DNA of 64,000 bases from the IMG/VR virus record IMGVR_UViG_3300042387_000948, positions 1 through 64,000 of that record; one strand, given 5' to 3'. A program made the translations under genes and the position numbers. The notes under the pieces are model-generated. The model worked only from the letters and a program-made list of their open reading frames with translations, had not been told where the DNA came from and searched no databases. The DNA is from a virus. Below are positions 35,324-49,004 of the stretch, in pieces (positions within the stretch are counted from its first letter, which is position 1; every line of letters starts with the position of its first letter).

Positions 35324-35488
35324 TTACTTTGCAACTGCTGTGTCTGCTGCTACCGAATCAGCTGCTACACTATCAACTGCAATTGTATCAACTGCTAAAG
35401 AATCACTTGCAACTTCTTGTTTTGATTCACCACATGCTGCTAATACTAATCCAGATGCGATAAACGCTAATGCTAATAATTTTTTCAT
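35324..35488 (-). CDS. Tiny lipoprotein with repeated Ala-Val-Asp-Ser units, 54 aa
   Basis: Found by reading the gap. Signal MKKLLALAFIASGLVLAAC with a lipobox Cys, then a tail of repeated units of type VDTxAVDSxAADS and a final K. It ends at a terminator and has its own promoter (35525). Similar short Asp/Ala/Ser-rich lipoproteins occur in Bacteroidota genomes; function unknown. Confidence 0.75.
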   Translation of the reverse strand: MKKLLALAFIASGLVLAACGESKQEVASDSLAVDTIAVDSVAADSVAADTAVAK

Positions 35489-35524
35489 TCTACTTTTTGT
35501 TTAAGGTTATTAATTATAATTATA

Positions 35525-35556
35525 CAAATATACAAAAAAAATATCAAAAATCCTAA
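35525..35556 (-). promoter_or_regulatory. Bacteroidota-type promoter (TTAGG-N19-TATATTTG)
   Basis: Drives the lone lipoprotein gene at 35324; a monocistronic unit of host-like type. Confidence 0.75.
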
Positions 35557-35580
35557 TATTCTTTAAGTTTTTTTTAAGGT

Positions 35581-35847
35581 TTAACACCAAGCGTTCTCTA
35601 TTGACTCGGTTTCAACCATTGACTGCTTTGCAATCATACGTTCTGCACATATCAAATCTACACTTTTGATAGCGGATTCAATGTTTATGAATTTCTTACC
35701 AAAGAATTTCCTAGCATAAGAAGGTCCTCTTAGGATTTCAACCATTTCGGGATACTTTTCAGTTGCCGCTTTCATAATCGAAAAGTTCGAATGACGAATA
35801 AATGGTTGAGGATGATTTTTGTTGGGTTTTTTAAATTCGATGTTCAT
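35581..35847 (-). CDS. Unknown protein, 88 aa
   Basis: Starts MNIEFKKPNKNHPQPFIRHS; helical second half (ESAIKSVDLICAERMIAKQS). Single gene behind the 35871 promoter. No family recognised. Confidence 0.65.
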   Translation of the reverse strand: MNIEFKKPNKNHPQPFIRHSNFSIMKAATEKYPEMVEILRGPSYARKFFGKKFINIESAIKSVDLICAERMIAKQSMVETESIENAWC

Positions 35848-35870
35848 ATTGTTTATCTTTTATTACTTAA

Positions 35871-35902
35871 TAAAGGTATGTAAAAAAATTGATAATGTCA
35901 AG
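35871..35902 (-). promoter_or_regulatory. Phage-type promoter (CTTGA-N19-TACCTTTA)
   Basis: Variant promoter upstream of 35581; -33 box AAAGCTTGA. Confidence 0.75.
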
Positions 35903-35920
35903 CTTTTTCTTAATTATTTT

Positions 35921-36103
35921 TTATAAACTATGTCCTAACTTATTATGGATTGAAATCATATGTTTACAGGGTGTATATTTACGAAAATCTCTAGCTTCGC
36001 AGTTACAACCCGTAATCTTCCAATCTTCAACTGTTACTTTATAGTGCTTATACTTCCCAGTCTTCTTATTCACACTACCCATTTCGCTGTAAAACCATTT
36101 CAT
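35921..36103 (-). CDS. SWIM-type zinc-finger protein, 60 aa
   Basis: CxCx(n)CxH pattern: GCNCEARDFRKYTPCKHM, as in SWIM domains that bind DNA or protein. The ATG at 36103 (MKWFYSEMG) is used; the in-frame alternative at 36154 is a TTG. Alone behind the 36204 promoter. Could be a phage transcription or DNA-binding regulator, which is inference. Confidence 0.75.
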   Translation of the reverse strand: MKWFYSEMGSVNKKTGKYKHYKVTVEDWKITGCNCEARDFRKYTPCKHMISIHNKLGHSL

Positions 36104-36203
36104 ATGTCTATTGTTTAGTATCCTAACATTTTTAACACTCTCAAACCAAACCAAATCGAATCAAAAACTAAAACTTTCATAATGTGTATCTCTTAGTACA
36201 TAG

Positions 36204-36235
36204 TAAAGGTAAGTAAAAGATTTGATATACACAAG
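36204..36235 (-). promoter_or_regulatory. Phage-type promoter (CTTGT-N19-TACCTTTA)
   Basis: Variant promoter with AAAAGCTTGT; drives the SWIM gene. Confidence 0.8.
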
Positions 36236-36246
36236 CTTTTCATCAA

Positions 36247-37413
36247 TTATTTTTCATCTTTTTTGAAAGGTTTTTCATACTTTGGCTTTAACAATTTCCA
36301 AATCATTTCATCAAATTGCGGCGAATATGAATCCAACCTTTTGAATAATAAAGACCTATTAGGATTATCTGCAATCTTATCAGCAAACTCTTTCTTATCT
36401 ATTAACTCTCTGAATTCTATTTCAATTTTATTTTTAATTGTATCAAATTCAGTTTGTAAATCCCTAACAACTTCTTTCACCCAAGCATCAAACTCATCAG
36501 GTACTCTATCCAAAAATGGTTCTAACTGTTCGTTATTTCTTAATAGTTCCCATATATCTTTGGTGGAAAAGTTAGTTAAGATTCTATGTAGACGAACATA
36601 CTCATCACCTTTAATCTTCATTCGCATACCGCCTGAAAAACGAATTACATATCCTTCATTATCTTTGGATATTTCTTTTTTCAAAGTTTCCCAATCTTCT
36701 CCCCAAGTCTTATACTTCATTACGATATCCCAACCTTCTTCCACAAGCTCTTCATATGGAAACTCTTCACCTCTTCTATTCATAACGCCCAACAATACCA
36801 ATCTCTCTTCTTTACCATAATCTACAACGATACGATTTTCAGGATAAATTATTTCAAAAAGATATGTGTAGCCAGGTACGCATATCTTATTGTAGTTGTA
36901 CTTATTTGCAATCTCCATACCTTTGATTGCTTGTTCGGAAGTAAATGAACCACGAGTTGTCATATGCCATTCACCTTTTATTTTTGGTGTTGGTTCATAG
37001 TATGGGTCATCAAAGTTAGGTAAGTTGTTTGGGTCAAAGAACCTTTCCATACCGGTTTCGTAATTATTATTAAACCATATGTTATATCTTCTTTCATCAC
37101 TCAACTCTTCCTCATAGTAAAAGAATATACCTAACGAACCATCCATCTTTTCATAAACCTCAAAGTATTCATTTGGGATATCCTCTGGTTTGTGCTCTTC
37201 GTAGTTAAAGAACTTTGGAAAAGGTTTAGCAACAACATTACCTTCGTTATCCAAAACTAATCCTCTGCAATTCAAAGTAATATCATCCCACATACCATTG
37301 TATTGGCATTCACGTGAATAGTTGTATATAGCCAATGGAAGTGTAGGATGATTTTGTTTAATCACCAATCCTTTGGATATGTAATCACCTATTAATGTTA
37401 AATCGTATTTCAT
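36247..37413 (-). CDS. rnlA: RNA ligase 1, T4 Rnl1 type
   Basis: Seals RNA 3'-OH and 5'-phosphate ends. Motif I is YEKMDGSLG with the nucleotidyl Lys near residue 89; further TTRGSF, TYLFEIIYPENRIV, EGYVIRF (motif IV) and MRMKIKGDEYVRLH (motif V). Length 388 aa is near T4 RnlA (374). It is the last gene of an operon with kinase and phosphoesterase, as expected for a repair pathway against host RNA-cutting defence nucleases. Confidence 0.93.
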   Translation of the reverse strand: MKYDLTLIGDYISKGLVIKQNHPTLPLAIYNYSRECQYNGMWDDITLNCRGLVLDNEGNVVAKPFPKFFNYEEHKPEDIPNEYFEVYEKMDGSLGIFFYYEEELSDERRYNIWFNNNYETGMERFFDPNNLPNFDDPYYEPTPKIKGEWHMTTRGSFTSEQAIKGMEIANKYNYNKICVPGYTYLFEIIYPENRIVVDYGKEERLVLLGVMNRRGEEFPYEELVEEGWDIVMKYKTWGEDWETLKKEISKDNEGYVIRFSGGMRMKIKGDEYVRLHRILTNFSTKDIWELLRNNEQLEPFLDRVPDEFDAWVKEVVRDLQTEFDTIKNKIEIEFRELIDKKEFADKIADNPNRSLLFKRLDSYSPQFDEMIWKLLKPKYEKPFKKDEK

Positions 37414-37428
37414 ATTACAATTTTTTAT

Positions 37429-38160
37429 TTATTCTCCCAAACCACCCATTTTTCCATATGTGGAGTTTTGTAGTATTTGATAAGCTATTTTATTTGTATT
37501 TGTACCTAAACTTTCAGGGTAATATAATAATGTTGGGTTTTTCTTTTGGATATCGATATCAGCATATTGTTTCTTAAATTCCATAACATCAAATCTTTCA
37601 GTAATTAAATGATAGCCTGATTTAGTTGGGATTTTTTTAATCACCTTTGTAACAATATCTAGTGATTTTTCAATAGTACCATCTCCTTTGTATGTATGTA
37701 CTATTGCTCTAAATTTAATAGGTTTACATTGGTCAATTGTGTTTATTACACCACCAATCAAACTTTCATCCTTTGTGTCAATATCTACAATCCATCTTTT
37801 TTCGTGCATCTTAACTTGTCCAACCACCGAATCAAATACGTGCTTTTGATTGATTTGACCCGATTGAATGCGATTGACAATATCAACAATCATTTGCATA
37901 CCAACATCCTTATGTTTTTGTTTGTTGATATGAATATATGCCCTTGCCTTAAACATCTCACAAAGTTGTTTAATCTCATCGTATCGTTGTTCTAAATGTT
38001 CTACACTCTCAATACAATATGATTTGATTGTACGAACCGATTGATGATTAGCTTTATCAGTTGTTTGGTCTTTCTTACGCTTAAAGATATAGAGCATATA
38101 GAAATCTCCTTCTTTCTCAAAGTTAAGTAATCCTTTAATTTGCTCTATATTATCTATCAT
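37429..38160 (-). CDS. Small primase-polymerase (AEP)-like protein, 243 aa
   Basis: Not assigned firmly. It carries WIVDIDTKDE (like the hhDhD motif of archaeo-eukaryotic primases) and, about 60 residues on, TKSGYHLITERFD (like the sGxH motif), with a third acidic candidate further on. These suggest the AEP fold. The protein lies between the polynucleotide kinase and RNA ligase in the RNA-repair operon, and its start overlaps the kinase stop (ATGA). Confidence 0.5.
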   Translation of the reverse strand: MIDNIEQIKGLLNFEKEGDFYMLYIFKRKKDQTTDKANHQSVRTIKSYCIESVEHLEQRYDEIKQLCEMFKARAYIHINKQKHKDVGMQMIVDIVNRIQSGQINQKHVFDSVVGQVKMHEKRWIVDIDTKDESLIGGVINTIDQCKPIKFRAIVHTYKGDGTIEKSLDIVTKVIKKIPTKSGYHLITERFDVMEFKKQYADIDIQKKNPTLLYYPESLGTNTNKIAYQILQNSTYGKMGGLGE

Positions 38161-38573
38161 AACTTTACTTCAAAACGATTTTTCATTTGTTCTAACTTTT
38201 CAGCAGGTACTCCGTGCTCATTTACACCACCATGTCTATTTTCTACAATAATACTGAATACTTTATATCCGTATTGTTCTGCTAACTTATAGTATGCTTC
38301 CATTTCCCACTCTTGCGTAAATGTGTTTGATACTACAATTTCAGGATAAAATTGAGGATTGACTTCGTTATCTTTCATACGAGTCTCAACTTGGTTTCTA
38401 CACCATTCATGTGCTTGCCTTAATTTAGAACCATCAAAGTTATAGTTACCTTCTTTATCATAGAAGAACTTATCAGCTTCACATATTGCATACTCATTCC
38501 AAATCCAATTGGCGAATGTTGATTTGCCACTACCTGGCAATCCTCTTACTAATGTTAATATTTTTGGTATCAT
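38157..38573 (-). CDS. Polynucleotide kinase-like P-loop protein
   Basis: P-loop GLPGSGKSTFANWIW (residues about 10-24), ADKFFYDKEG, VVSNTFTQEWEMEAY and the lid-type ENRHGGVNEHGVPAEKLEQM. This matches the kinase part of PNKP/N4BP2-type enzymes, which phosphorylate 5' RNA or DNA ends. At 138 aa it lacks the phosphatase domain of T4 Pnkp; the metallophosphoesterase in the same operon may supply that step. Confidence 0.85.
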   Translation of the reverse strand: MIPKILTLVRGLPGSGKSTFANWIWNEYAICEADKFFYDKEGNYNFDGSKLRQAHEWCRNQVETRMKDNEVNPQFYPEIVVSNTFTQEWEMEAYYKLAEQYGYKVFSIIVENRHGGVNEHGVPAEKLEQMKNRFEVKL

Positions 38574-38773
38574 TACTTTATTGGTTTATCTTCTACTTTG
38601 TAAATACAAAACTCATCTGCTATATTCGTATCGGCTCTACCTTTGATGAACTCTAATTGTTCTTCGGCTTCTTCCATAGTACCATAGAATACTGTATTGT
38701 GATATGTGTAGCAGTTTAATTGATTACTATCCTTAAACCACATTCGTGCAATCACATAATTAAACTTTTCCAT
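38573..38773 (-). CDS. Unknown protein, 66 aa
   Basis: Starts MEKFNYVIARMWFKDSNQL; mixed strands and helices (EEAEEQLEFIKGRAD). Overlaps the kinase gene by one base in the RNA-repair operon. Not recognised. Confidence 0.7.
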   Translation of the reverse strand: MEKFNYVIARMWFKDSNQLNCYTYHNTVFYGTMEEAEEQLEFIKGRADTNIADEFCIYKVEDKPIK

Positions 38774-38776
38774 ATT

Positions 38777-39436
38777 TTATCTATAATTTTCAACCATAGT
38801 GTGGTGGTCATTTGGCATCATACTACCTATTGGTTGTTTCTCCATAATCTTTAATATCTCTTCTAAACTAATAGGGTCTAAACCATTTCCATCTACACCC
38901 ACATCCATAACTTTACCATTACCAACTCTACGATGGTTAGGTAAGTGAACGTGTCCGTGTAAGTGAATAACACCCCTACCTAAATTTTCCCAACTAGCAA
39001 TTGGAAAGTGCATCAAAACAAATTGTGCTTCCTTTTGATTTAGAGTTCCAACATTCCACTTAACAACCAAATTAACTAAATGGTTTACACTAATGAAACA
39101 ATCCTGCACCCCATCTTTATTTCTTCCAATGTGATGGTCGTGGTTTCCTAATACTAAATGGATGTTCTTGCAATTCAATCTGCTACGGAACTCTCTAATG
39201 GAATCAAACCCACCGAAAGACCAGTCACCTAAATGGATTAGGATATCATTCTCCCCAACTACGGTATTGATACCAGCAACTAACCTATCATTCATCTCAC
39301 CCAAAGAATCAAAATCTCTAAAGTGATTCGGTTTGCTCTTATCCCATTCGGTAGTGCCTCTACAAATATTTGCGTGATTAAAGTGGGTATCTGAAGTGAA
39401 CCACAACTTTTGACCTTTATTCAAAATAATCTTCAT
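38777..39436 (-). CDS. Calcineurin-like metallophosphoesterase
   Basis: Motifs in order: SDTHFNHANI, GDWSFGG, GNHDHHIG, VLMHFPI and HGHVHLPNHR, the complete set of metal ligands. It removes phosphate from mono- or diesters. As the first gene of the RNA-repair operon it is a good candidate to heal 2',3'-cyclic or 3'-phosphate ends before ligation; that is inferred from context. 219 aa. Confidence 0.9.
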   Translation of the reverse strand: MKIILNKGQKLWFTSDTHFNHANICRGTTEWDKSKPNHFRDFDSLGEMNDRLVAGINTVVGENDILIHLGDWSFGGFDSIREFRSRLNCKNIHLVLGNHDHHIGRNKDGVQDCFISVNHLVNLVVKWNVGTLNQKEAQFVLMHFPIASWENLGRGVIHLHGHVHLPNHRRVGNGKVMDVGVDGNGLDPISLEEILKIMEKQPIGSMMPNDHHTMVENYR

Positions 39437-39461
39437 ACTATTGGGGGTTTTAATTATAGGA

Positions 39462-39493
39462 TAAAGGTAAGTAAAAAAATTGATATATCCTAA
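39462..39493 (-). promoter_or_regulatory. Promoter of the RNA-repair operon (TTAGG-N19-TACCTTTA)
   Basis: N19 architecture with a TTAGG box and TACCTTTA. Drives 38777, 38573, 38157, 37429 and 36247. Confidence 0.75.
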
Positions 39494-39497
39494 TTAT

Positions 39498-39785
39498 TTA
39501 GAAAGTATTTTCCAACCAATATGAAAGATATTGTAAAGTGGCAATCTTATCCTTTAATGTGATATTCCAAATGGTTGTGTACTCACCATCACATACTACT
39601 TTGTAAACCTGCTTTTCGTATTCGGATAGCGGTTCTCTATATATGGTTACAATCTTATGGTCTCTACGGGTCTTACCCTTAAACACAATTTCATATAACT
39701 TACTCAACTGCCGGACTTGTGTAATTTGGTATTTACCCACTACACAACCTATAATCTTATCGTAGTTCTTTATAGTTAGTTTCAT
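39498..39785 (-). CDS. MLTIKN-family protein (MKLTIKNYDKIIG), 95 aa
   Basis: Last member of the MLTIKN array. It begins MKLTIKNYDKIIG, then a strand region (YQITQVRQLSKLYEIVF), LxR-type strand (IVTIYREPL) and a C-terminal helix. The function is unknown. Its ATG overlaps the stop of the 39785 gene. Confidence 0.75.
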   Translation of the reverse strand: MKLTIKNYDKIIGCVVGKYQITQVRQLSKLYEIVFKGKTRRDHKIVTIYREPLSEYEKQVYKVVCDGEYTTIWNITLKDKIATLQYLSYWLENTF

Positions 39786-40165
39786 TAGAATGGTAATTTT
39801 AGATTTGGATGATTCTCTACATAGTTTTCAATAATAGCACCAACTCTTTCCATAAATTCATATGCGGTTGTTTTCTTTAACCATTTACGTCCCAACCAAT
39901 GTTCGTATATAACTGAACCATCTTTATGTACGAATTGTAGTTTATACACATCATCCGAATCCCTATCATATGGGAATTCTTTATCCGCCTCCATACCCAA
40001 TCGTATCTCAACCCAATCAAAATCAGTTGGGACATTCTTTTGTAAGATTATAGAATAGTAATCATTACGCGTTTCTTCCACCTCCATTATGTACCAACCC
40101 CTAAAGCTATTAACTTTTGTTTTGAAAGAATTTAGTTGATACTCAAAGTTTAGTATTGTTAGCAT
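39785..40165 (-). CDS. MLTIKN-family protein (MLTILNFEYQL), 126 aa
   Basis: Begins MLTILNFEYQLNSF, has the family RGWYIMEVEE segment near residue 23 and a C-terminal helix (AYEFMERVGAIIENYV). Longer than most members. Overlaps neighbours on both sides by one base. Confidence 0.75.
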   Translation of the reverse strand: MLTILNFEYQLNSFKTKVNSFRGWYIMEVEETRNDYYSIILQKNVPTDFDWVEIRLGMEADKEFPYDRDSDDVYKLQFVHKDGSVIYEHWLGRKWLKKTTAYEFMERVGAIIENYVENHPNLKLPF

Positions 40166-40425
40166 TATAATAATTGGATTTCAGCTAATAAAGCAGTTAC
40201 ACCTTCTTCAGTTAGGTATCCCTTAACATCTCCATCGGCAATCGGATTATCGTAATGGATTTCGCCATCTTTGAATACTGCCAACTCATACAAACCCTCA
40301 CCACCTCCATAGGTATAAGGAGTTCTAACTACGGATGCACCATAACTATTCTCAAACTCTATAAGTGCTTGAACACCACTTCCCATAGGGTGTAGGTTAA
40401 ACTCTAAATCATTAAATCTTTTCAT
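40165..40425 (-). CDS. Unknown protein, 86 aa, inside the MLTIKN array
   Basis: Lacks the MLTIKN start: MKRFNDLEFNLHPMG. It carries VRTPYTYGGGEGLYELAV, a Gly-rich pattern seen in other phage small proteins, and a C-terminal helix. It interrupts the paralogue array. Confidence 0.7.
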   Translation of the reverse strand: MKRFNDLEFNLHPMGSGVQALIEFENSYGASVVRTPYTYGGGEGLYELAVFKDGEIHYDNPIADGDVKGYLTEEGVTALLAEIQLL

Positions 40426-40430
40426 ATCTA

Positions 40431-40790
40431 TTATTTTTTTAATTCGTAATCTATTACACCTACTACCGATTCTATAAATGCCTTTTTATCTTCTAACGCA
40501 GTTTTGAATACTCCACCCCCATTAATCATCTTTTGATTTAAGTATATTTTATATCGATACTGTCCTCCTAAAAACTCATCGGTTTCTCTCTCCAATATTA
40601 ACCTACCCACATTCTTTGGTCCACCCAACCCATCCGCTCGGTAATAATGAAATTGAACCGAATATTGTTTACACCCAATGAGGTTCGAATCAATATCAAA
40701 TTTGTATGTATCCTCCAACACATCGGTAATCTTCCAACCACCCCACCAACTATTAAGTAATGAGGATTTGAAATTCTTTATCGTTAGCAT
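40431..40790 (-). CDS. MLTIKN-family protein (MLTIKNFKSSL), 119 aa
   Basis: Starts MLTIKNFKSSLLNSW; family landmarks GGWKITDVLEDTY, VGRLILERE and YRYKIYLNQK follow, then a helix (EDKKAFIESVVGVI). Overlaps the 40784 gene. Confidence 0.75.
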   Translation of the reverse strand: MLTIKNFKSSLLNSWWGGWKITDVLEDTYKFDIDSNLIGCKQYSVQFHYYRADGLGGPKNVGRLILERETDEFLGGQYRYKIYLNQKMINGGGVFKTALEDKKAFIESVVGVIDYELKK

Positions 40791-41113
40791 ACCCTTTGTA
40801 ATTTTTCTAATAACTTCGCCATAGTTGTTGCAAGTAGATATGGTCTTTGTAAATCATCCCACTCAACCAAAATCTTTACTTCGTTTTTCCAAGCCGATAC
40901 AAACATTTCATATTTACCTGATTCGTTGGGAGTTCTATCTAACCAAATCTCAACATCATCTCCAATTAACCTATACACCTTTTGAACCTTTGGGCTAAAC
41001 TCACTTACCCTAAAATAAAATATATACCATATCCCATTTAGAATTACTTTGTGTGCAACTTTACCACTACACAACATACTCTTAAACTTATCTATGTTTT
41101 CAATCTTCAACAT
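40784..41113 (-). CDS. MLTIKN-family protein (MLKIENIDKFKSM), 109 aa
   Basis: Starts MLKIENIDKFKSML, with IWLDRTPNESGKYEMFV at the LxR position and a C-terminal helix (LATTMAKLLEKLQRV). Overlaps both neighbours. Confidence 0.75.
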   Translation of the reverse strand: MLKIENIDKFKSMLCSGKVAHKVILNGIWYIFYFRVSEFSPKVQKVYRLIGDDVEIWLDRTPNESGKYEMFVSAWKNEVKILVEWDDLQRPYLLATTMAKLLEKLQRVC

Positions 41114-41420
41114 ATACTAAAAATTTTGAACTAATCCAATTAAGTAATTGCTTAGGATTTTTTATGTATTGATTATGTATTTTCTTTCGGGTTCCCATCG
41201 AATTCATAATTTCAATATCATACTCAAACCCATTCTCATTTAATTGCCGATACAACTTAACGAATTGTGATTTGTGTATGGCGAACACCCCTTTGGTCTC
41301 CGGGAGAAATGCAAATTGGTAGTAATCATCCCTTTCGATAATCTCACCCATCAACCACAATGTACCCATACAATTGAATTGATTATCCTTTATCTTTTTG
41401 TAGTTCGTTATTGTTAGCAT
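41100..41420 (-). CDS. MLTIKN-family protein (MLTITNYKKIKD), 106 aa
   Basis: Starts MLTITNYKKIKDNQF at the ATG in 41418-41420, within the conserved ATGCTAACAATA start sequence; an upstream ATG adds only six residues. LWLMGEIIERDDYYQFAFL corresponds to the family core. Unknown. Confidence 0.75.
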   Translation of the reverse strand: MLTITNYKKIKDNQFNCMGTLWLMGEIIERDDYYQFAFLPETKGVFAIHKSQFVKLYRQLNENGFEYDIEIMNSMGTRKKIHNQYIKNPKQLLNWISSKFLVYVED

Positions 41421-41477
41421 AATATTCAGTATCATCAACTCTCATTCGGGTCGAATTTAAGATTTTTTTGTAAAGGT

Positions 41478-41816
41478 TTAATTTGATAGTGAATCCACAA
41501 TCCTATCCACCATCCAATTATAGAACCTTTCCCTATCCTTAAACAAACTACTCATAACGCGTACATCGTGTATTCGTATTCCCATAATCAAATCCTCAAT
41601 CCAAAGATGGTAGTACACCTCATCTTCCGCCTCTCTCTTCACCACTACCTTAAACCTCCTCTTAGCATCCCCCATAGACCAAAAGAATGTATAGAATGGA
41701 TTTTCCAAATTGCCGGAAACAGCTCCGTGTAAACCCCCATCTACTAATTTGAATCCACCAATTTGGTATCCATCATCATGTCCTATATCTCTCCGTACAT
41801 TTTTAATCCTTAGCAT
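41478..41816 (-). CDS. MLTIKN-family protein (MLRIKNVRRDIG), 112 aa
   Basis: Starts MLRIKNVRRDIGHDDG, then IGGFKLVDGGLHG, YTFFWSMGDAKRRFKVVVKR and a helix (DRERFYNWMVDRIVDSL). The IGxFKLVxxGLxx pattern also occurs in the 42415 gene; these two form a subgroup. Confidence 0.75.
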   Translation of the reverse strand: MLRIKNVRRDIGHDDGYQIGGFKLVDGGLHGAVSGNLENPFYTFFWSMGDAKRRFKVVVKREAEDEVYYHLWIEDLIMGIRIHDVRVMSSLFKDRERFYNWMVDRIVDSLSN

Positions 41817-41820
41817 GTTA

Positions 41821-42129
41821 TTAATATTTATTAACTATTTTACATAAGGTTGCTAGCATCATATTCATATCCGAAAGGTATTCCGCATCTACACAAAATT
41901 CAATTTTTTTATGCTCATAATAAAAGAAGTATCTCCATTCACCATTACCCAATGATTCAAGTGTTCTACTTAAATGAAATTCCTTTCTATTAGCAGTAAT
42001 TTTATATGCGGGATGTCGTACCCCAATTGTATAGGTGTAATCCCACTCTTCACAATATTCCACTACCCACCCTGCGGTAAACTCTAATAATCTTCCCTCT
42101 AACTTATCGTAGTTCTTAATTGTTAGCAT
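41821..42129 (-). CDS. MLTIKN-family protein (MLTIKNYDKLEG), 102 aa
   Basis: Starts MLTIKNYDKLEGRLL; AGWVVEYCEEWDYTYTIGV and FHLSRTLESLG match the family core; C-terminal helix (MMLATLCKIVNKY). Overlaps the 42123 gene by seven bases. Confidence 0.75.
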   Translation of the reverse strand: MLTIKNYDKLEGRLLEFTAGWVVEYCEEWDYTYTIGVRHPAYKITANRKEFHLSRTLESLGNGEWRYFFYYEHKKIEFCVDAEYLSDMNMMLATLCKIVNKY

Positions 42130-42413
42130 GTAAATCTATCTAATGCCTTTAACATATTCCCCATATTCAAAATCCAATCCGGAGTTACTCCGTATTGTGT
42201 AAGTTCACCATCTCCGTTCCTAAACATATACGCTACCTTACCATTACTTGTATTTGTGGGTTTCCTTTCCAAATATACCTTTATAGATGATAGGTGTTGG
42301 TGTTCTAATTTAATTTCGTACCAATTATCCGTTTCTCTACAAAAAGCAACCTCCCAACCATCTCTTCCAAGGGGTTTACCACACAGTTTATAAAAATTCT
42401 TAATTGTTAGCAT
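42123..42413 (-). CDS. MLTIKN-family protein (MLTIKNFYKLCG), 96 aa
   Basis: Starts MLTIKNFYKLCGKPL; RDGWEVAFCRETDNWYEIKL and VYLERKPTNTS carry the GWxV and LxR marks. C-terminal helix (NMLKALDRFTC). Confidence 0.75.
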   Translation of the reverse strand: MLTIKNFYKLCGKPLGRDGWEVAFCRETDNWYEIKLEHQHLSSIKVYLERKPTNTSNGKVAYMFRNGDGELTQYGVTPDWILNMGNMLKALDRFTC

Positions 42414-42414
42414 A

Positions 42415-42789
42415 TTACATATGTTTTACTATTTGATTTATCATCCAAGTATAGAACCCTATTCTATCTTTTAGGTGAGTATTTGTACCCACAGATGTAG
42501 CATAAATCAAACCGGCTTTACCATAATGAGTGAAACCTTTTTTCTCATCGTAAATCTCAAAGTTGTATATAGATGTTGTACCCTCTATTGGTTTTCTTTC
42601 TAAAAAGCATTTGAACCTACTACGCTCATCATTGTAACTCCAATAGAATGCGTAATAATCGTAGTTATCCGAAATGCCCGTTATTTCATCGGGTCGATTG
42701 TACAACCCAGCATTTACCAATTTGAATGAACCTATTACGATTCCAGTATCTGGGTCTGCGCCCTTTGTTGGGTTTCGTATTGTTAGCAT
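42415..42789 (-). CDS. MLTIKN-family protein (MLTIRNPTKGAD), 124 aa
   Basis: Starts MLTIRNPTKGADPDTG; IGSFKLVNAGLYNRP and YYAFYWSYNDERSRFK pair it with the 41478 gene. A LERKPIEGTTS segment gives the LxR mark. Confidence 0.75.
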   Translation of the reverse strand: MLTIRNPTKGADPDTGIVIGSFKLVNAGLYNRPDEITGISDNYDYYAFYWSYNDERSRFKCFLERKPIEGTTSIYNFEIYDEKKGFTHYGKAGLIYATSVGTNTHLKDRIGFYTWMINQIVKHM

Positions 42790-42792
42790 ATC

Positions 42793-43080
42793 CTATAAAC
42801 AAAATCCTTTAAGTGAACGTAATAGGTTAGATGGGTTTTGTATGAAATCAATCGTTACACTCCGTAGAGTAACACTACCATTTCTATCATAGTATTGGTA
42901 CACCTTCCTACCATCGGGAAGTACTTTAGCAATCCTACTTAGATACACAGTCTCTTGGTGTTCGGGTGAGCGTAGGTTTATAGTGTATTCTTTATTTTGT
43001 TCATAGATAGCACTCACATACCATTTACCTACTCCGATGTTATGTAGTTCCAGCTTTTTGTAATTGTGTATTGTTAGCAT
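42793..43080 (-). CDS. MLTIKN-family protein (MLTIHNYKKLEL), 95 aa
   Basis: First gene of the array transcript from the 43100 promoter. Starts MLTIHNYKKLELHN; GKWYVSAIYEQNKEYTINL and VYLSRIAKVLPDG give the family core. Preceded by the CCCC start-proximal element (plus GGGG at 43082-43085). Confidence 0.78.
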   Translation of the reverse strand: MLTIHNYKKLELHNIGVGKWYVSAIYEQNKEYTINLRSPEHQETVYLSRIAKVLPDGRKVYQYYDRNGSVTLRSVTIDFIQNPSNLLRSLKGFCL

Positions 43081-43099
43081 AGGGGTTTTGATTATGTAT

Positions 43100-43131
43100 T
43101 AAAGGTAAGTAAAAAAATCCGTATTTCCAAA
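43100..43131 (-). promoter_or_regulatory. Promoter of the MLTIKN array (TTTGG-N19-TACCTTTA)
   Basis: N19 architecture; drives ten to eleven genes down to 39498. TTTGG with a TACCTTTA -7 box. Confidence 0.8.
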
Positions 43132-43455
43132 TTAATATCCAAAATAATCCCACCAATCAGCAACCTTCAAAGATAACCATTCTATGAATAGGGGAAATGT
43201 TTTGAAGTATTTAGGATTAAAAGAGTTCCCTTCTGTGGTATGGAAGTTCACCCCATCTCCACTCCTCACTACACACACCTTATAGGTATGGTTACTCCAA
43301 TCGAAATCTAACATAATCACGTTAGAGCATTCGGATTGAGGATATATCCATACTATGGTATCCCTATGACGGTGTGCATCCAAATGATAGTTATAGAACC
43401 CTGAAGCTAGTTTGAATCCCTTAACACGTTCCGTAAAGTTTTGAGGTCCTTTCAT
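43132..43455 (-). CDS. MKxPxNF-family protein, 107 aa
   Basis: Starts MKGPQNFTERVKGFKLASG; shared FHTTEGNSFNPKYFKTFPLF and VIMLDFDWSNHTYKV segments link it to the next two genes. Function unknown; tandem triplet. Confidence 0.75.
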   Translation of the reverse strand: MKGPQNFTERVKGFKLASGFYNYHLDAHRHRDTIVWIYPQSECSNVIMLDFDWSNHTYKVCVVRSGDGVNFHTTEGNSFNPKYFKTFPLFIEWLSLKVADWWDYFGY

Positions 43456-43458
43456 ATC

Positions 43459-43785
43459 TTAATTATAAAAATGATTTCCCCACTCATTCAACTTCTCAAA
43501 TAACCATCCAATGAATGTATCAAAGGATGTGAAGAATTTTGGGTCAAATCGCCAAGGTTTAAGAATGGTGTGAAAGTTTGTACCATCTCCGTTCCCTGCG
43601 ATACATACCCTATATTCTTCCTCATCCCATCGGAACTCTAACATAATTGAATTGGTAGATTTATCTTTAGTATATATCCATACCTTATCGTCATCCCCTT
43701 CGTTATTCCCTAAATAGCAATTACTCCATGAGCCGGGCATTTTATATCCATTAATCCGTTTAGCAAAATTGATTGGTGCTTTCAT
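43459..43785 (-). CDS. MKxPxNF-family protein, 108 aa
   Basis: Starts MKAPINFAKRINGYKMPG; SIMLEFRWDEEEYRV, FHTILKPWRFDPKFFTSFDT. Close to the 43132 product, with FDPKFF at the same place. Confidence 0.75.
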   Translation of the reverse strand: MKAPINFAKRINGYKMPGSWSNCYLGNNEGDDDKVWIYTKDKSTNSIMLEFRWDEEEYRVCIAGNGDGTNFHTILKPWRFDPKFFTSFDTFIGWLFEKLNEWGNHFYN

Positions 43786-43788
43786 ATC

Positions 43789-44115
43789 TTAATTAAATAA
43801 TTCCTTATGGTCTCTGATTAGGGATGTAGTACACTCTATGAACGAATCGAATGTTCTGAACTTATGAGGAGAGAAACCCAAATCCTGCTTTGAACGAGAA
43901 TAATCCGATTTTCCACTCAAACGGCTAATGGGCACTATATCGTATTCATCCCTCTTCCAATTGAATAGTAGCATGATAGCGCCGGGCGTATTTCTCATAG
44001 GAGTTATCCAAAGAGAAGAATCCATACTTGCGATTGTAGTAAGGATATACGATTCCCCATCTACCTCCAATTCGTATCCGTGCAACTTAGTACTAAAATT
44101 TATAGGTGCTTTCAT
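43789..44115 (-). CDS. MKxPxNF-family protein, 108 aa
   Basis: Starts MKAPINFSTKLHGYELEV; AIMLLFNWKRDEYDI and GFSPHKFRTFDSFIE keep the triplet pattern. Overlap-free neighbours 3 bp apart. Confidence 0.75.
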   Translation of the reverse strand: MKAPINFSTKLHGYELEVDGESYILTTIASMDSSLWITPMRNTPGAIMLLFNWKRDEYDIVPISRLSGKSDYSRSKQDLGFSPHKFRTFDSFIECTTSLIRDHKELFN

Positions 44116-44117
44116 CC

Positions 44118-44210
44118 TTACATCATTTCAACAATCCATAGTAATATACCCAATACCAATAGGGATATAATCACCTTTATGATATCTTTGTTTCTTCCTT
44201 TATAATGCAT
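44118..44210 (-). CDS. Short single-span membrane peptide, 30 aa
   Basis: MHYKGRNKDIIKVI then a hydrophobic segment (ISLLVLGILLWIVEMM). Two bases between its stop and the next start. Too short for firm proof but fits the gene packing. Confidence 0.55.
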   Translation of the reverse strand: MHYKGRNKDIIKVIISLLVLGILLWIVEMM

Positions 44211-44213
44211 ATC

Positions 44214-44450
44214 TTATTTACGATTTAATTTAGAGATTCTACACCAACGATTAATAAACCAATATAGGTGTACCATCGATACCATAACGTTTACAATGAT
44301 AGTAGGGTTATTCTGAATTAAGAACCCATACCAAACCCACACTAAACATGCAAAGAAGTTCACTATCCGAACCAGCTTTTGTTTAGAGAACGCAAAGGAG
44401 AGTACACTCATACCCATTGCGAAGTAACCAACTATTTCTAATGTATTCAT
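44214..44450 (-). CDS. Three-span membrane protein, SemiSWEET/YgjV-like, 78 aa
   Basis: Three hydrophobic segments (IVGYFAMGMSVLSFAF, FFACLVWVWYGFLI, IIVNVMVSMVHLYWFI). The pattern YGFLIQNNPTIIVNV recalls SemiSWEET and YgjV-type proteins. SemiSWEETs move sugars as dimers; a phage copy would be odd. Assignment is by pattern only. Confidence 0.55.
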   Translation of the reverse strand: MNTLEIVGYFAMGMSVLSFAFSKQKLVRIVNFFACLVWVWYGFLIQNNPTIIVNVMVSMVHLYWFINRWCRISKLNRK

Positions 44451-44452
44451 AT

Positions 44453-44572
44453 CTATTTGTTAATCCGTTCTTTTGGCAATGTCCCATACATCAACCACTT
44501 CTCATATTGGAGGGATGATAGTATGAGGTATTGTCCATTTACCTTTAATACAAAATCCATTTCTTTGTTCAT
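44453..44572 (-). CDS. Small protein, 39 aa
   Basis: Translated from the gap: MNKEMDFVLKVNGQYL, then LQYEKWLMYGTLPKERINK. Packing between genes 44578 and 44214 and the ATG context support it; unknown role. Confidence 0.55.
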   Translation of the reverse strand: MNKEMDFVLKVNGQYLILSSLQYEKWLMYGTLPKERINK

Positions 44573-44577
44573 ATCTT

Positions 44578-44829
44578 TTATCTTCCTATTTGAAAATCAA
44601 TGTAATCCGATATTGCCATTGAGTTCCTAACGTTAATCCGTTTTTGAATCAACTCCATAGCCTCTTCATATCTATCATACGAAACCACACCTTCATTTAT
44701 ATAGTATTCTGAATTGGCTCGTTTAGGGGTGATACCCAATGCTTTTGCTCTCTCTTCAATAAACTCAACGTAACGTTCTAAGGAAAGACGTTTAATAGTT
44801 GATGGTTTCAAATCTAATCCATTTTTCAT
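44578..44829 (-). CDS. Small family protein (GVVS/GVIS type), 83 aa
   Basis: Contains YVEFIEERAKALGITPKRA and EGVVSYDRYEEAMELIQKR, matching 46524 (GVISEDRFEEAKW) and, more distantly, 34416 and 34959. Unknown function. Confidence 0.7.
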   Translation of the reverse strand: MKNGLDLKPSTIKRLSLERYVEFIEERAKALGITPKRANSEYYINEGVVSYDRYEEAMELIQKRINVRNSMAISDYIDFQIGR

Positions 44830-44841
44830 ATCTTATATCTT

Positions 44842-45063
44842 TTATAGGTCGTAAATCTCTTCTAACTTACCATTGTAGTAGGCAACGAATAGGTTATACT
44901 CCATTATCTCAACGTTGTAGTATTCTCTATTATAATCCTCTACACTTACATCCAGCCAACTAGTGTGGATACCATTCTTCTCACATAAGGCTTCGAACTC
45001 TGCAGCGTTAATGGTGGGGGCGATAGCAATCAACTCTTTCTTAGTAATCTTTGGGGTTTTCAT
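44842..45063 (-). CDS. Unknown acidic protein, 73 aa
   Basis: Starts MKTPKITKKELIAIAPTI; contains FEALCEKNGIHTSWLDVSVE and a Tyr/Asn-rich end. The ATG at 45063 is chosen because the promoter lies at 45111-45142, inside a longer upstream extension. Confidence 0.7.
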   Translation of the reverse strand: MKTPKITKKELIAIAPTINAAEFEALCEKNGIHTSWLDVSVEDYNREYYNVEIMEYNLFVAYYNGKLEEIYDL

Positions 45064-45483
45064 AATATAGAGTGGAGGGAGGGAAGGTTTGTTGTCTCTC
45101 AACCACATATTAAAGGTAAGTAAAATAAATGAGAATTCCAAACATTTAGGTAAATTTATTTTTGTATCAATCCACATAAGTAAGTTAGCTCAAGTAAGCT
45201 GGATAGGTACTATCTAAAAACCCTCCCTTTGGGGTAAACCAAGAGTCTACTCTGTCCCACAAAAAGTAAACCCCAGAGAAAAAAACCTGGCTCGGGGCGA
45301 AAAGGTATTAGGGCCCCCTTCCAAAAAAAAGTTGCAAGACCTTTTACAAGTAACCAGTCCCCCCCCACCTCGGAGTATAACCACCTACTTATTAGTGCCA
45401 CTCAACGCCTCCGCATTAGTGCCACAAACCACCACATTCTACCTTTTGAATCCAATCTATTTACGAGCCGCCTCCGCCGGGTA
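45064..45483. other. Gene-poor, GC-rich 420-bp stretch
   Basis: Besides the promoter at 45111 it holds no convincing gene. It contains GGGCCC near 45312, a run of C near 45359, two ATTAGTGCCAC copies (45391, 45415), repeated GCCTCCG motifs and the paired GGGGTAAACC (45232) and GTAAACCCC (45268). An RNA or remnant gene is possible. Confidence 0.5.
45111..45142 (-). promoter_or_regulatory. Promoter (TTTGG-N19-TACCTTTA)
   Basis: Drives the small-gene operon 44842 to 43132. Confidence 0.75.
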
Positions 45484-45681
45484 CTACAACACACCCACAA
45501 CGCCTCCGCTCTCCTCACAGTGACGGGCTACAAAATATTCTAACCGCTTTATGTGGTTAGTGATTCGGGTGGTCAGTCCCCCTATGTATTTAGGGTGTCC
45601 ATACTGAAGTGAAAAAGACAATTCACTTATTCGTTTAGTATGGTATTCGATTTTGGGTAAGTAACCATTAGTGTGTTTCAT
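45484..45681 (-). CDS. Unknown basic protein, 65 aa
   Basis: Starts MKHTNGYLPKIEYHTKRI; LTTRITNHIKRLEYFVARH is a basic helix. GC- and codon-use differ at its 3' end, which runs into the GC-rich stretch. Moderate support only. Confidence 0.5.
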   Translation of the reverse strand: MKHTNGYLPKIEYHTKRISELSFSLQYGHPKYIGGLTTRITNHIKRLEYFVARHCEESGGVVGVL

Positions 45682-45722
45682 ATATAGGGAGTTTAAATGA
45701 ATTTATTTTTATTAGTGTCCGA

Positions 45723-46310
45723 TTACAAGCTAGCCACTGCTTTAGCGATTGTAGCTTCGGTGTAGGAATATCCTTTTAATTTCTCAATTGCTTTCTCTAA
45801 AGTTAATACACCCCACACATACTTACCATCTAGCATATCTCTTAGGGAACGTTTCGCTTCAGGCCAAGTACCGAAGGGGGCTTTACCATTAAAGGAAACA
45901 TACTTAGCGTTGAACTCTAATTCAGTTCCGTTATCACTCTTACCATTCTCAGCGTACTCATAACAATCATGCATCCCATCGTAATGTCCACCTTTGAACA
46001 TATTACAGAAAGAAGCAATATCATAGTACTCTTTAGTACCATATTCTAACTCCGAACCATCAGCGTTACAAGCATACAAGTCAGAAGAAGAACCATTAGC
46101 GAAGGTAGAGGATTTACCCCATACCAACATATTAGGATATTTAACTTTCATAAATTGTTTGAACATCAAAGGAACTTCCTTACGTCCAATAGTGATAGTA
46201 GGGTTAGTAAGGGGTTCTCCCCAGTAGTTAGTAGTTCTTAAACAAGCAGAGGGTAATTCAAAAGTGATACCCATCAATTTAAATTTCGTAGTGTTCTTAG
46301 AAGAAGCCAT
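45723..46310 (-). CDS. Unknown protein, 195 aa
   Basis: Starts MASSKNTTKFKLMG. Landmarks: GRKEVPLMFKQFMKVKYPNM, WGKSSTFANGSSSD, FNAKYVSFNGKAPFG, and a C-terminal helix with SYTEATIAKAVASL. Not recognised. Largest gene of the 44-49 kb tract, behind the 46355 promoter and a conserved leader. Confidence 0.75.
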   Translation of the reverse strand: MASSKNTTKFKLMGITFELPSACLRTTNYWGEPLTNPTITIGRKEVPLMFKQFMKVKYPNMLVWGKSSTFANGSSSDLYACNADGSELEYGTKEYYDIASFCNMFKGGHYDGMHDCYEYAENGKSDNGTELEFNAKYVSFNGKAPFGTWPEAKRSLRDMLDGKYVWGVLTLEKAIEKLKGYSYTEATIAKAVASL

Positions 46311-46330
46311 AATAAGGGGGGTTTAAAGTG

Positions 46331-46369
46331 GAGAACTGTCTCTCTCACATATAATAAAGGTAAGTAAAA
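46331..46369 (-). promoter_or_regulatory. Conserved leader plus -7 region, copy 2
   Basis: Identical over 39 bp to 35173-35211; shows leader conservation beyond the promoter boxes. Confidence 0.85.
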
Positions 46370-46386
46370 GTTAGCAAATAAACAAG
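46355..46386 (-). promoter_or_regulatory. Phage-type promoter (CTTGT-N19-TACCTTTA)
   Basis: Variant promoter with AAAAGGCTTGT; drives 45723 and possibly 45484. Confidence 0.8.
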
Positions 46387-46459
46387 CCTTTTAACAATTA
46401 TTTTTGCTTTTTTTTCAATTATTTATTTAATGGTATATGCCGGGGCCTCCGCATACAAC

Positions 46460-46488
46460 AAACCCCACCAGCAGTACCAGAGGGGTTT
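46460..46488. terminator. Inverted repeat AAACCCC/GGGGTTT
   Basis: Seven-bp perfect stem with a 15-bp loop and no strong T-run. It lies in a 213-bp gene-free gap after the 46524 gene; may be a terminator. Confidence 0.4.
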
Positions 46489-46523
46489 AATCCAAAAACT
46501 ATGTTTACAAATCACTTAATATC

Positions 46524-46724
46524 TTACACGTAGTAGTTCTCAACTACCTTACGAATTGTCAATGCCCACTTAGCCTCCTCAAACCTATCCTCACTAATCA
46601 CACCATACCAAAAACAATAATCAAAGTTCACCTTCGCAGGAGTAGAACCATTCAACACCGCCATACCCTCTAACAGGTCCACATACTCAACCAAACTCAA
46701 ACCAGCAATTTCTTCGTTATTCAT
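46524..46724 (-). CDS. Small family protein (GVIS type), 66 aa
   Basis: Starts MNNEEIAGLSLVEYVDLLEG; shares YGVISEDRFEEAKW with relatives at 44578. The ATG at 46724 has the CCCC element upstream; an earlier codon at 46751 falls inside it. Confidence 0.7.
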   Translation of the reverse strand: MNNEEIAGLSLVEYVDLLEGMAVLNGSTPAKVNFDYCFWYGVISEDRFEEAKWALTIRKVVENYYV

Positions 46725-46855
46725 ATTATAAGGGGTTAAAACCAATTTCAATTTTTGGGAGGTGTCTTACAGAGATTGCTAACACCCTCAATCGGCAGGG
46801 GTGACCCGTTACCATTAAGAACACAATCAAAGCAATCAACCTCTCTCTCATATAA

Positions 46856-46887
46856 TAAAGGTAAGTAAAATTCCTGATATATACAAG
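46856..46887 (-). promoter_or_regulatory. Phage-type promoter (CTTGT-N19-TACCTTTA)
   Basis: Variant promoter with AAAAGGCTTGT; drives the 46524 gene after a ~130-nt leader. Confidence 0.8.
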
Positions 46888-46904
46888 CCTTTTAACAAAT
46901 ATTT

Positions 46905-47147
46905 TTAAAAGAAAAATGCGTTCCATACATACTCCAAAGGTCTCTCATACCTCTCACCAGCTCTATGGTTATTGGAAGCTGAAAAGGAGTGAGCTGGGTA
47001 GATGGATTTAACTACCTCCATCGTACACATCCCAGCGTACTCATTAATATGTACTAACTTAGCACGTAAGGTAGGAGAGAAGTTCTCTGGTGTATCCTCG
47101 CCTACTACCTTAACTAAATCCGTAATCTTACTATCTGAATATCTCAT
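46905..47147 (-). CDS. Unknown protein, 80 aa
   Basis: Starts MRYSDSKITDLVKVVGED; Cys/Met/Ala-containing centre (HINEYAGMCTMEVVKSIYPA). Not recognised; CCCC element lies upstream of its ATG. Confidence 0.65.
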   Translation of the reverse strand: MRYSDSKITDLVKVVGEDTPENFSPTLRAKLVHINEYAGMCTMEVVKSIYPAHSFSASNNHRAGERYERPLEYVWNAFFF

Positions 47148-47158
47148 AATGAATGGGG

Positions 47159-47398
47159 TTAAGAAATGAATTTTAAAACATAAGAAGGAATACCAGCTTC
47201 CAAACCTCTTCCGGCTGCCAAGGCCTCCTCAACAGCGGAAGTCTTATACAATCCGATAAACTCTCTAATCGCTTGACGTTGAGCCTTAGTACGATATGGA
47301 ATGCGGAATCTTTCAAAACAAATGATTGGTGTTCCAGCCTTAATGGTTCTACCTTTGTTAGCCGGAGTGTTGATGTAAATGGTTTGTTCGTTGTTCAT
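47159..47398 (-). CDS. Unknown protein, 79 aa
   Basis: Starts MNNEQTIYINTPANKGRTIK; RTKAQRQAIREFIGLYKTSA is a basic helix. Middle gene of the 47630 transcript. Confidence 0.7.
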   Translation of the reverse strand: MNNEQTIYINTPANKGRTIKAGTPIICFERFRIPYRTKAQRQAIREFIGLYKTSAVEEALAAGRGLEAGIPSYVLKFIS

Positions 47399-47408
47399 AT
47401 ATAGGGGA

Positions 47409-47582
47409 TTAAAGTTTTACGTTATTAAAGGTTTCAATATGTGATAACAAATCGTAGATGGCATCCTCAATATCTTCACCAACATAGGGTTTGATTTTCA
47501 TCTCATCACACATAGGTTGGTACATCATATCTTCAAGGATTATCTCATCGTAACGTTCATCAAGCAAAAGGGAAGAAATCAT
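47409..47582 (-). CDS. Small acidic protein, 57 aa
   Basis: Translated from the gap: MISSLLLDERYDEIILEDMM, acidic helices, ends FNNVKL. First gene after the 47630 promoter with the CCCC element upstream of its ATG. Confidence 0.65.
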   Translation of the reverse strand: MISSLLLDERYDEIILEDMMYQPMCDEMKIKPYVGEDIEDAIYDLLSHIETFNNVKL

Positions 47583-47629
47583 AACAAAGTGGGGTTAAAG
47601 GAGGAGAACCATCTCTCTCTCACATATAA

Positions 47630-47661
47630 TAAAGGTATGAAAAAGACATGGAAATTCCTAA
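47630..47661 (-). promoter_or_regulatory. Promoter (TTAGG-N19-TACCTTTA) with conserved leader
   Basis: N19 architecture and a TATATGTGAGAGAG-type leader like those at 35173 and 46331. Drives 47409, 47159 and 46905. Confidence 0.75.
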
Positions 47662-47702: not shown

Positions 47703-47882
47703 TCAGGCTAATTTGGGCCGGATTAATTCTTCGAAAGCCATTTCCAAAGCATCTTCATATGGACACCCATCTCCACCGGAGGAAAGCACAGATTGTATTT
47801 GTTTGGCATACGATACCAACTCCTCATCTAATCCCATTGAGGCTGCGATAAGCAACATTGATTCCCTTGTGTATTTAATCAT
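47703..47882 (-). CDS. Small protein, 59 aa
   Basis: Translated from the gap: MIKYTRESMLLIAASMGLDE, helical, ends EELIRPKLA. Its ATG lies within the end of the 47875 gene (overlap of 8 bp), suggesting coupling. Confidence 0.65.
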   Translation of the reverse strand: MIKYTRESMLLIAASMGLDEELVSYAKQIQSVLSSGGDGCPYEDALEMAFEELIRPKLA

Positions 47883-48168
47883 CTTTCCATTTTAGAGTTT
47901 CTACTTCACAAGCCTGAAGCTTGAGTAATTCTTTATTTGCATTATGTAGTATTCTCTTCTGGTCTTCAATCTTAGCTTTCAGCAACTCAAGTGCTCCTGC
48001 TTTCCTCCCCCATCTCTTAGGATAGATTAGTTTGGGCCCGATTGGTAAATAATATTTTCGAATGGATGTGGGCTCATCTGAATGAGGATTCGTAACAACG
48101 TAGTACTCCCCCGTCTTATTATTAGTGTATAGTTCAGCCACCAAGTGCATCTGCCTTGTTTTTTCCAT
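47875..48168 (-). CDS. Unknown protein, 97 aa
   Basis: Starts MEKTRQMHLVAELYTNNKT at 48168; a coiled-coil-like end (LLKAKIEDQKRILHNANKEL) and Cys-containing tail. The ATG is chosen because the promoter is at 48174-48205. Confidence 0.7.
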   Translation of the reverse strand: MEKTRQMHLVAELYTNNKTGEYYVVTNPHSDEPTSIRKYYLPIGPKLIYPKRWGRKAGALELLKAKIEDQKRILHNANKELLKLQACEVETLKWKDD

Positions 48169-48173: not shown

Positions 48174-48205
48174 CAAAGATACGAAAACTTCCTGATATAT
48201 CCAAA
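48174..48205 (-). promoter_or_regulatory. Bacteroidota-type promoter (TTTGG-N19-TATCTTTG)
   Basis: Consensus elements; drives 47875 and 47703. Confidence 0.85.
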
Positions 48206-49004
48206 CGAATTCGGAATTATTTTGCTAACTTGCTCACCGGTCTCACGTTAGGCTGGAATATGGAATATATCACCCGCCCTCCCACACCTTAAAAATACGA
48301 AATAAATTCCATAAAGTCAAGTCTTTTTCGATTTATTTTCAGCTTTTTTTTATATTTTTTTGGGATGGGATTGCACCGGTATCGTGGATTCGTGAATATG
48401 GAATTGTACTTTTCTAATATGGTGCCGCTCTACTTAACATAATGTAAATTATATAACAAAAAATGATGGTACAAAACTAAGATTGGGCCCGTTTCTTAAA
48501 AAAGTACAACGTTTTTTCGCTTGACCCTTGGGAATTCTGCTGTCATCGCTTAGAATAATACAATTGTAAACTAGCTAATCACATATGTAAATTTCGCACA
48601 ACTTATATGTTATGGGGATTTTTTCAGCTTATCGGAATAAAAAACGTATCCAGCTCATCGGACTTGAATAAAAAACGTATTCAAAATTCCGAGTAAAAAA
48701 CGTATCCAAAACCGTTGGCTTGAATAAAAAACGTATCCAAAAATAGTGTGGAAGCTCGGGCTTGAAAAAAAAATTTGCTCTCAAAAGGTGTGTGTAGTAG
48801 CCTATCGGGTAATGTGATATATTAACTAGCTATCTTTTTGGTGTTATTACCCTATAACTTTAGGTAATTTTAATACTGCTCTATGTGGGTGTGATATGGA
48901 TACGATTTTTAACCACTCCATATATGATAATTCTTCGATAGTTGAATTCTAAGCGATTTTGGATAAAAAACGTAGATAATTATTAGTGTGTAATAATAGT
49001 GCTC
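48206..49004. other. 800-bp gene-free region with iteron-like repeats
   Basis: No ORF of note on either strand. It contains direct repeats of an AATAAAAAACGTATCCA unit (separate entry), an inverted copy and AT-rich stretches. Possible replication origin, terminus or a regulatory region. Confidence 0.6.
48636..48739 (+). repeat. Four direct repeats AATAAAAAACGTATCCA
   Basis: Copies at 48636-48652, 48667-48683 (one mismatch), 48692-48708 (one mismatch) and 48723-48739, spaced 31, 25 and 31 bp. Related copies: inverted at 48898-48914 and a partial at 48962-48976. Confidence 0.9.

Follow-up and report, generated by a model that had tools for sequence, protein, structure and literature searches.

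A gene-free region of about 800 bp in the 207-kb genome of a T4-like myovirus of Bacteroidota type carries a dif site beside an array of iterons, and on balance this region is probably a plasmid-like maintenance locus, in which a replication origin is fused to a host-type dimer-resolution site. The identification of dif is strong. Judged from its sequence, dif is the firmest functional element of the region, and it was missed by the first-pass annotation of this DNA, whose coordinates leave it out though it lies only 173 bp from the array.

The window, meaning the whole stretch of DNA analysed, comprises bases 1-64,000 of a virus record of 207,029 bases (G000). Genes for a tail sheath, a DNA polymerase, a DnaB-type helicase and a thymidylate synthase place the virus among the T4-like myoviruses; its sheath resembles those of Mel-JY01, LR756508 and Flavobacterium phage immuto, and a relative of 188 kb (L016/G001) is about 85% identical. 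Nearly all genes are on the minus strand, which in the window includes host-like genes for Cpn10, Hsp20, ClpS, PhoH, UvdE, peptide deformylase, lipase and an FkbM methyltransferase. The plus strand, otherwise rarely used, encodes at 28078-31338 a protein of 1086 aa resembling a TonB-dependent outer-membrane receptor (CarboxypepD_reg, plug, OMP_b-brl_4), followed by the gene of an AAA_28 protein; the receptor-like protein is possibly host-derived cargo or a receptor-related factor. ARAGORN predicted about 24 tRNA genes at 70.7-76.4 kb of the genome and, also outside the window, a tmRNA with its tag peptide at 159027-159406 (L009). Promoters of what we take to be the Bacteroidota-type consensus (TTG/TTTG, about 20 bp, TAnnTTTG) are common in this phage. 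Repeated elements of about 70 bp with TACGAAA...TTTCGTATCTTTG, found at 34870-47645 of the window and in L005, apparently upstream of many small genes, probably represent a family of phage promoters in which a dyad is embedded.

No plausible gene was found between 48205 and 49004, in agreement with the first-pass annotation, and Rfam had no match within the window. The following features are located in and around this region.

48174..48205, minus strand: second promoter, TTTG...TATCTTTG, for the downstream gene 47875-48168 (from the sequence)
48273..48285, minus strand: G-cluster GTGGGAGGGCGGG, just downstream of the next promoter
48288..48320, minus strand: host-type promoter TTGACTT...TATTTTTAAG in the dif locus (by consensus match only)
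48404..48417, plus strand: TTGTACTTTTCTAA, inverted flanking motif on the XerD side, +42 from the dif start
48432..48459, minus strand: dif, 28 bp, TTGTTATATAA-TTTACA-TTATGTTAAGT (XerC arm, centre, XerD arm; by arm match to chromosomal dif)
48496..48509, minus strand: TTGTACTTTTTTAA, dif-flanking motif on the XerC side
48550..48563, minus strand: TTGTATTATTCTAA, dif-flanking motif on the XerC side
48578..48591, minus strand: TTTACATATGTGAT, of the type TTTACAWWTGTRAA, between the iterons and dif, and also near dif in five relatives
48632..48654, minus strand: iteron 4, GCTGGATACGTTTTTTATTCCGA (repeat search)
48663..48685, minus strand: iteron 3, TTTGAATACGTTTTTTATTCAAG, with perfect dyad arms TTGAATA/TATTCAA (repeat search)
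48688..48710, minus strand: iteron 2, TTTGGATACGTTTTTTACTCGGA (repeat search)
48719..48741, minus strand: iteron 1, TTTGGATACGTTTTTTATTCAAG
48895..48917, plus strand: inverted outlying iteron copy (PWM scan), conserved in L016
48958..48980, minus strand: partial outlying iteron copy, within about 60 bp of strongly conserved sequence

Both 11-bp arms of the phage site agree with dif as it occurs on the chromosomes of Cytophagales, Sphingobacteriales and Bacteroidales. The Bacteroidota chromosomal site recognized by XerCD has the same 28 bp, the same 11-6-11 layout and the arms TTGTTATATAA and TTATGTTAAGT, whereas the present one is phage-borne, has the centre TTTACA instead of the common TTTATA and is flanked by phage-specific repeats that were not found at chromosomal dif. 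In genome_contigs, which represents 84,980 species of bacteria and archaea by one genome each, the fixed-arm pattern TTATATAA-N6-TTATGTTAAGT was found in at least 115 places; the matches listed were mostly from Bacteroidota, with Bacilli, Brachyspira and others also appearing, and gave the consensus TGTTATATAATTTATATTATGTTAAGTA. The chromosomal pattern was single-copy in all five genomes checked. In two complete chromosomes, the sign of the GC skew changes from plus to minus close to dif, the local cumulative-skew maximum being 25 and 56 kb off; dif is not opposite dnaA in two complete genomes, and dnaA need not mark oriC. The arm matches, the single copy, the skew turn and the published dif of E. 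coli (GGTGCGCATAATGTATATTATGTTAAAT; PMC3025954) together carry the identification. About 1.6e-5 such sites are expected by chance in 207 kb. The site lies between the iterons and the next gene and is conserved in the L016/G001 alignment, with the centre TTTGTA there.

The four direct copies of AATAAAAAACGTATCCA that had been noticed before are all present at start-to-start spacings of 31/25/31 bp, two of them exact (48636-48652 and 48723-48739) and two with one mismatch (48667-48683 and 48692-48708), and so is the partial copy at 48959-48974. The inverted copy exists as well, with 3 mismatches, but its coordinates had been given one base off (48897-48913, not 48898-48914). In the 64 kb of the window there are five matches to AATAAAAAACGTATCCA at up to 3 mismatches against 0.86 expected, and none of 100 shuffles gave five. 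The proposed search for the repeat elsewhere favours a special site, as the motif at up to 2 mismatches is confined to the iteron locus in all 207,029 bases. In a PWM scan the six local iterons, all within 350 bp (48,632-48,980), scored 22-32 bits; the next best site in the 207-kb genome scored 15.8, and Markov controls reached at most 14.2. Taken in the direction in which the genes are transcribed (minus strand), each unit reads TTTGGATACGTTTTTTATTCAAA and forms an imperfect 23-bp dyad, TTTGRATA/TATYCAAA, with an A/T-tract between its arms. The array occupies about -282 to -173 from dif on its XerC side.

Alignment with L016/G001 shows the iteron motifs conserved amid differences in spacers, copy number and spacing, and the 11-mer TACGTTTTTTA occurs four times in that 188-kb genome, always in the corresponding region. 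Motifs conserved despite diverging spacers are the signature of selected sites, here predicted to bind protein. The spacings of 25 and 20 bp in the relative remove the argument from 31 bp, near three helical turns; ordered protein binding in a special non-coding maintenance region is nevertheless supported by the localised, conserved motif. The two-copy iteron pattern was not found in genome_contigs, nor was any iteron within 600 bp of the 76 chromosomal dif sites, and the idea of a bacterial chromosomal site was rejected. Dif-bearing relatives without iterons also exist, and most pair-motif matches, including L013, proved to be unrelated, with different motifs.

The 23-bp dyad is found outside the myoviruses as well. 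Iteron 1 plus the preceding T (TTTTGGATACGTTTTTTATTCAA, 23 bp) is identical in an otherwise unrelated siphophage family (L121/G020, L114, L123, L390, L392, L395 and L396), in which the dyads precede the gene of the small terminase subunit, in non-coding DNA, and no full dif is present. G020 (37 kb) is probably a complete genome because its contig ends overlap. The sequence TTATGTTAA[AG]TAG is beside the dyad in 4 of the 7 siphophage contigs; with so few contigs and no XerC arm, this "XerD arm" was not counted as support. A single 23-bp dyad lies just upstream of a gene start in L394. A 99-aa zinc-ribbon protein that the window phage shares with the siphophage was rejected as the iteron binder because it also occurs in relatives without iterons.

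Several other elements accompany dif. Motifs like TTGTACTATTCTAA occur near dif on one or both sides, inverted at +42 in G000, G001 and G003 and at -21 in G003, G005, G006 and G007, and are virtually absent from the 76 chromosomal dif flanks. The G-rich GGAGGGCGG is present exactly once per genome in G000, G001, G003 and G004 and once in the available pieces of G002, G005 and G007; in every case it lies less than 180 bp from dif and follows directly on a promoter; G006, whose contig ends 30 bp upstream of dif, is without it. The predicted fold of the promoter/G-cluster transcript is unremarkable in the window (z 0.8) and has a z of -2.1 in the relative, and it is not put forward as an RNA family. 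Across 14 records, 12 DnaA boxes (TTATNCACA) lie within 500 bp of dif against 1.05 expected, nine of them from three related records (G009-G011, three each, 124-485 bp from dif), with two more in G003 at about -300 and one in G002 at -152. No such box was found within 500 bp of dif in G000 or G001, as would be looked for at a DnaA-dependent origin; in these two genomes the iterons stand where DnaA boxes lie in some other dif-bearing phages.

The dif pattern was detected in 43 viral contigs, about seven of which have it within a long ORF and between different flanks, and appear to be chance matches. In all 20 phage records searched, dif with exact arms occurs once per record. The dif-bearing relatives are G001, G002, G003 (287 kb), G004 (160 kb), G005, G006 (195 kb), G007 and G008, and a separate dif-bearing lineage (G009-G012) extends up to 326 kb; dif is missing from the relatives Mel-JY01, immuto and LR756508. 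By skew sign, dif points in the direction of transcription in 7 of 7 long records, which are not independent of each other. Since no tyrosine recombinase was found in seven dif-bearing phage records (control positive in 14/14), host XerCD presumably has to act on the phage site, and we infer that this recombination would be under FtsK control. Dif-like sites of the 11-6-11 type are also carried by circular plasmids of Bacteroidota; in one case a helix-turn-helix gene and a gene for a replication initiator lie about 1.1 kb from the site. L252 and L247 (G004, G008) have, about 75 bp from the first site, another sequence resembling dif, TTATATAA-TATA-TTATGTTAAAT, in which the centre measures 4 bp. 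Among the dif contigs of 30 kb or more, five (e.g., G002, G006, G009, G014 and G017) have an end less than 1 kb from dif, about 0.4 being expected by estimate, which could reflect recombination at dif, microdiversity or chance; these ends fall at differing places on both sides and were not used as physical genome ends.

The centre separates phage from chromosomal sites. TTTATA is the centre in 65 of 95 chromosomal sites and in none of 26 distinct phage sites (Fisher P=3e-11, phylogeny not corrected), the comparison being with the common centre of the phylum, from which that of the phages' own hosts may differ. Tyrosine recombinases need matching centres for strand exchange. As the centres differ, phage sites should recombine better with each other than with the chromosome, and the lack of TTTATA in all 26 phage sites argues against integration. 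Plasmid centres were set aside as a second test of this mismatch, because the plasmids had been chosen by similarity to the phage centre.

The origin-plus-dif explanation would work as follows. A dimeric initiator, host- or phage-encoded, would bind the 23-bp iterons, and the transcript of the neighbouring promoter and G-cluster (R-loop type) would help to prime replication. Host XerC and XerD would bind the dif arms and resolve multimers of the circular phage genome made by recombination, probably driven by FtsK. With a 6-bp centre unlike the usual chromosomal TTTATA, phage-phage exchange would work and phage-host exchange would be poor, which would keep the phage extrachromosomal. For this, the genome would have to be circular at some point inside the cell.

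A replication origin, which the first-pass annotation had offered as one of three possibilities, is the best reading of the iterons, by analogy: they resemble iteron origins, being clustered direct repeats in a non-coding region, and other dif-bearing phages have clusters of DnaA boxes at a comparable place. The other two possibilities fared less well. A partition site finds no partner in the seven records, in which neither ParA (AAA_31) nor ParB was found, and a packaging site was not supported. The GC-skew check suggested earlier does not help, since one strand carries nearly all genes and the skew is therefore uniform along the 207-kb genome and uninformative about an origin, with no switch at the iteron site. 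A search for initiators of the Rep_3 family found none in the seven records, its control being positive in only 2 of 14 genomes.

Some observations count against this explanation. A chromosomal origin lies opposite dif and not beside it, and phages of the T4 type, which package from concatemers, have no need of dimer resolution. The absence of dif from Mel-JY01, immuto and LR756508 also speaks against it, as do the negative searches for Rep_3, ParA and ParB in the seven records, and the dyads that occur without a full dif in the 37-kb siphophages and at the gene start in L394 would fit an operator as well.

Similar arrangements are known from other replicons. The iterons of RepA_N origins (pSK41, Vibrio PLE) have been described as semi-palindromic around an A-tract, and the direct repeats of the window likewise have arms converging on an A-tract, but sequence and host phylum differ and no RepA_N protein was identified, the RepA_N model not having been run genome-wide (PMC7145576). 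T4 oriE likewise has iterons in the form of short direct repeats that lie in a cluster and that relatives conserve, in a phage of the T4 type and close to an early-type promoter, whereas the T4 repeat has a different sequence (12 nt), no dif is reported at oriE and the role of the T4 iterons is unproven (PMC3016281). Enterobacterial replicons above 250 kb all have an XerCD site, and that of R27 (180 kb) is FtsK-dependent (PMC11724359); the size of the phage genome fits this pattern. The xrs of such large plasmids and megaplasmids shares with the phage site its 28 bp, its 6-bp centre and its place on a large extrachromosomal replicon, while the phage has virion genes, an iteron block beside dif and no ParA or ParB found, and its FtsK dependence is only predicted.

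The iterons and flanking repeats could alternatively be accessory sequences of a Xer site like cer (ColE1) or psi (pSC101), bound by a host protein that imposes intramolecular directionality on XerCD recombination at dif, and not an origin. The array, 173-281 bp from dif on the XerC side, matches the side and the rough distance of the cer/psi accessory sequences of about 180-200 bp (PMC5357621, PMC11724359); repeats about 175-280 bp from the core and a promoter within the locus (Pcer/Rcd in cer) are common to both. The fixed places of the TTGTACTATTCTAA motifs (+42 inverted in three genomes, -21 in four), virtually unseen at the 76 chromosomal flanks, fit accessory sequences, and a dyad common to otherwise unrelated phages suggests a host binder. 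However, the phage arms are chromosome-like, the centre is 6 bp, the replicon is much larger and the repeats have no recognisable ArgR or ArcA sites; other relatives have dif without iterons, and the siphophages have dyads without a full dif. Accessory control is thought to be inefficient at this replicon size, large replicons using 28-bp sites without accessory sequence (PMC11724359). Because this size argument favours a chromosome-like, FtsK-dependent site without accessory sequences, binding of the iterons by an initiator is ranked above a cer-like role, which we consider unlikely, although it deserves real weight. The same dyads might instead bind a transcription regulator of the neighbouring genes, with dif as an independent neighbour. 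Their dimer-type symmetry, the copy upstream of the gene start in L394, those in the siphophage control region and the promoters facing downstream genes would suit an operator, and such a role is kept in play by the dif-less siphophages and the lone copy; but there is no other good dyad copy in the 207-kb genome, no promoter was recognised within the array, the closest ones downstream are at a distance of 310-450 bp, and a single operator would not usually have a cluster of four to six copies. We regard an operator cluster as distinctly unlikely.

Integration at the chromosomal dif by host XerCD, as in the IMEX phages (CTXphi, VGJphi, TLCphi), would make the region an attachment site (attP). 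These are known phages with dif-like sites and, like the window phage, without a tyrosine recombinase of their own, and the phage arms match chromosomal dif; yet they are small and integrating, whereas here a 207-kb myovirus has an uncommon centre. None of 395 Bacteroidota genomes yielded a prophage with a tail-sheath query that did match the relative G001; chromosomal dif flanks showed only scattered similarities to the phages, and neither a centre compatible with the common chromosomal one nor integrated copies at dif were found. Together with the centre counts, this makes an attachment site improbable. Finally, many copies of the phage dif could titrate XerC/XerD or FtsK and so block host resolution or division, the repeats being incidental. 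Perfect arms at high intracellular copy number would be expected to compete for XerCD, but one site per genome would be a weak decoy, the altered centre would be needless, and the conserved flanking motifs, the promoter/G-cluster and the DnaA boxes beside dif would be left unexplained, so that we give this very little credence.

The origin-plus-dif explanation may hold for the whole group of large myoviruses of Bacteroidota (about 160-330 kb), with a combined origin-and-dif locus, a centre diverged from the chromosomal one and host XerCD resolving multimers without integration, an extension that we put forward tentatively and would not yet call probable. In open-licence literature no report of dif in large tailed phages was found, which is no proof of its absence; the Xer-exploiting phages in the papers found, which also treat large plasmids, are small and either filamentous or tailless, and they integrate. 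To our knowledge, no origin has been mapped in this phage group, and the locus would supply a candidate. The phage dif would also give a sequence clue to the host phylum. If the explanation is true, viruses assumed to replicate as linear concatemers would pass through a circular, plasmid- or chromid-like stage, and giant phages would use the chromosome-resolution machine of the host for their own genomes.
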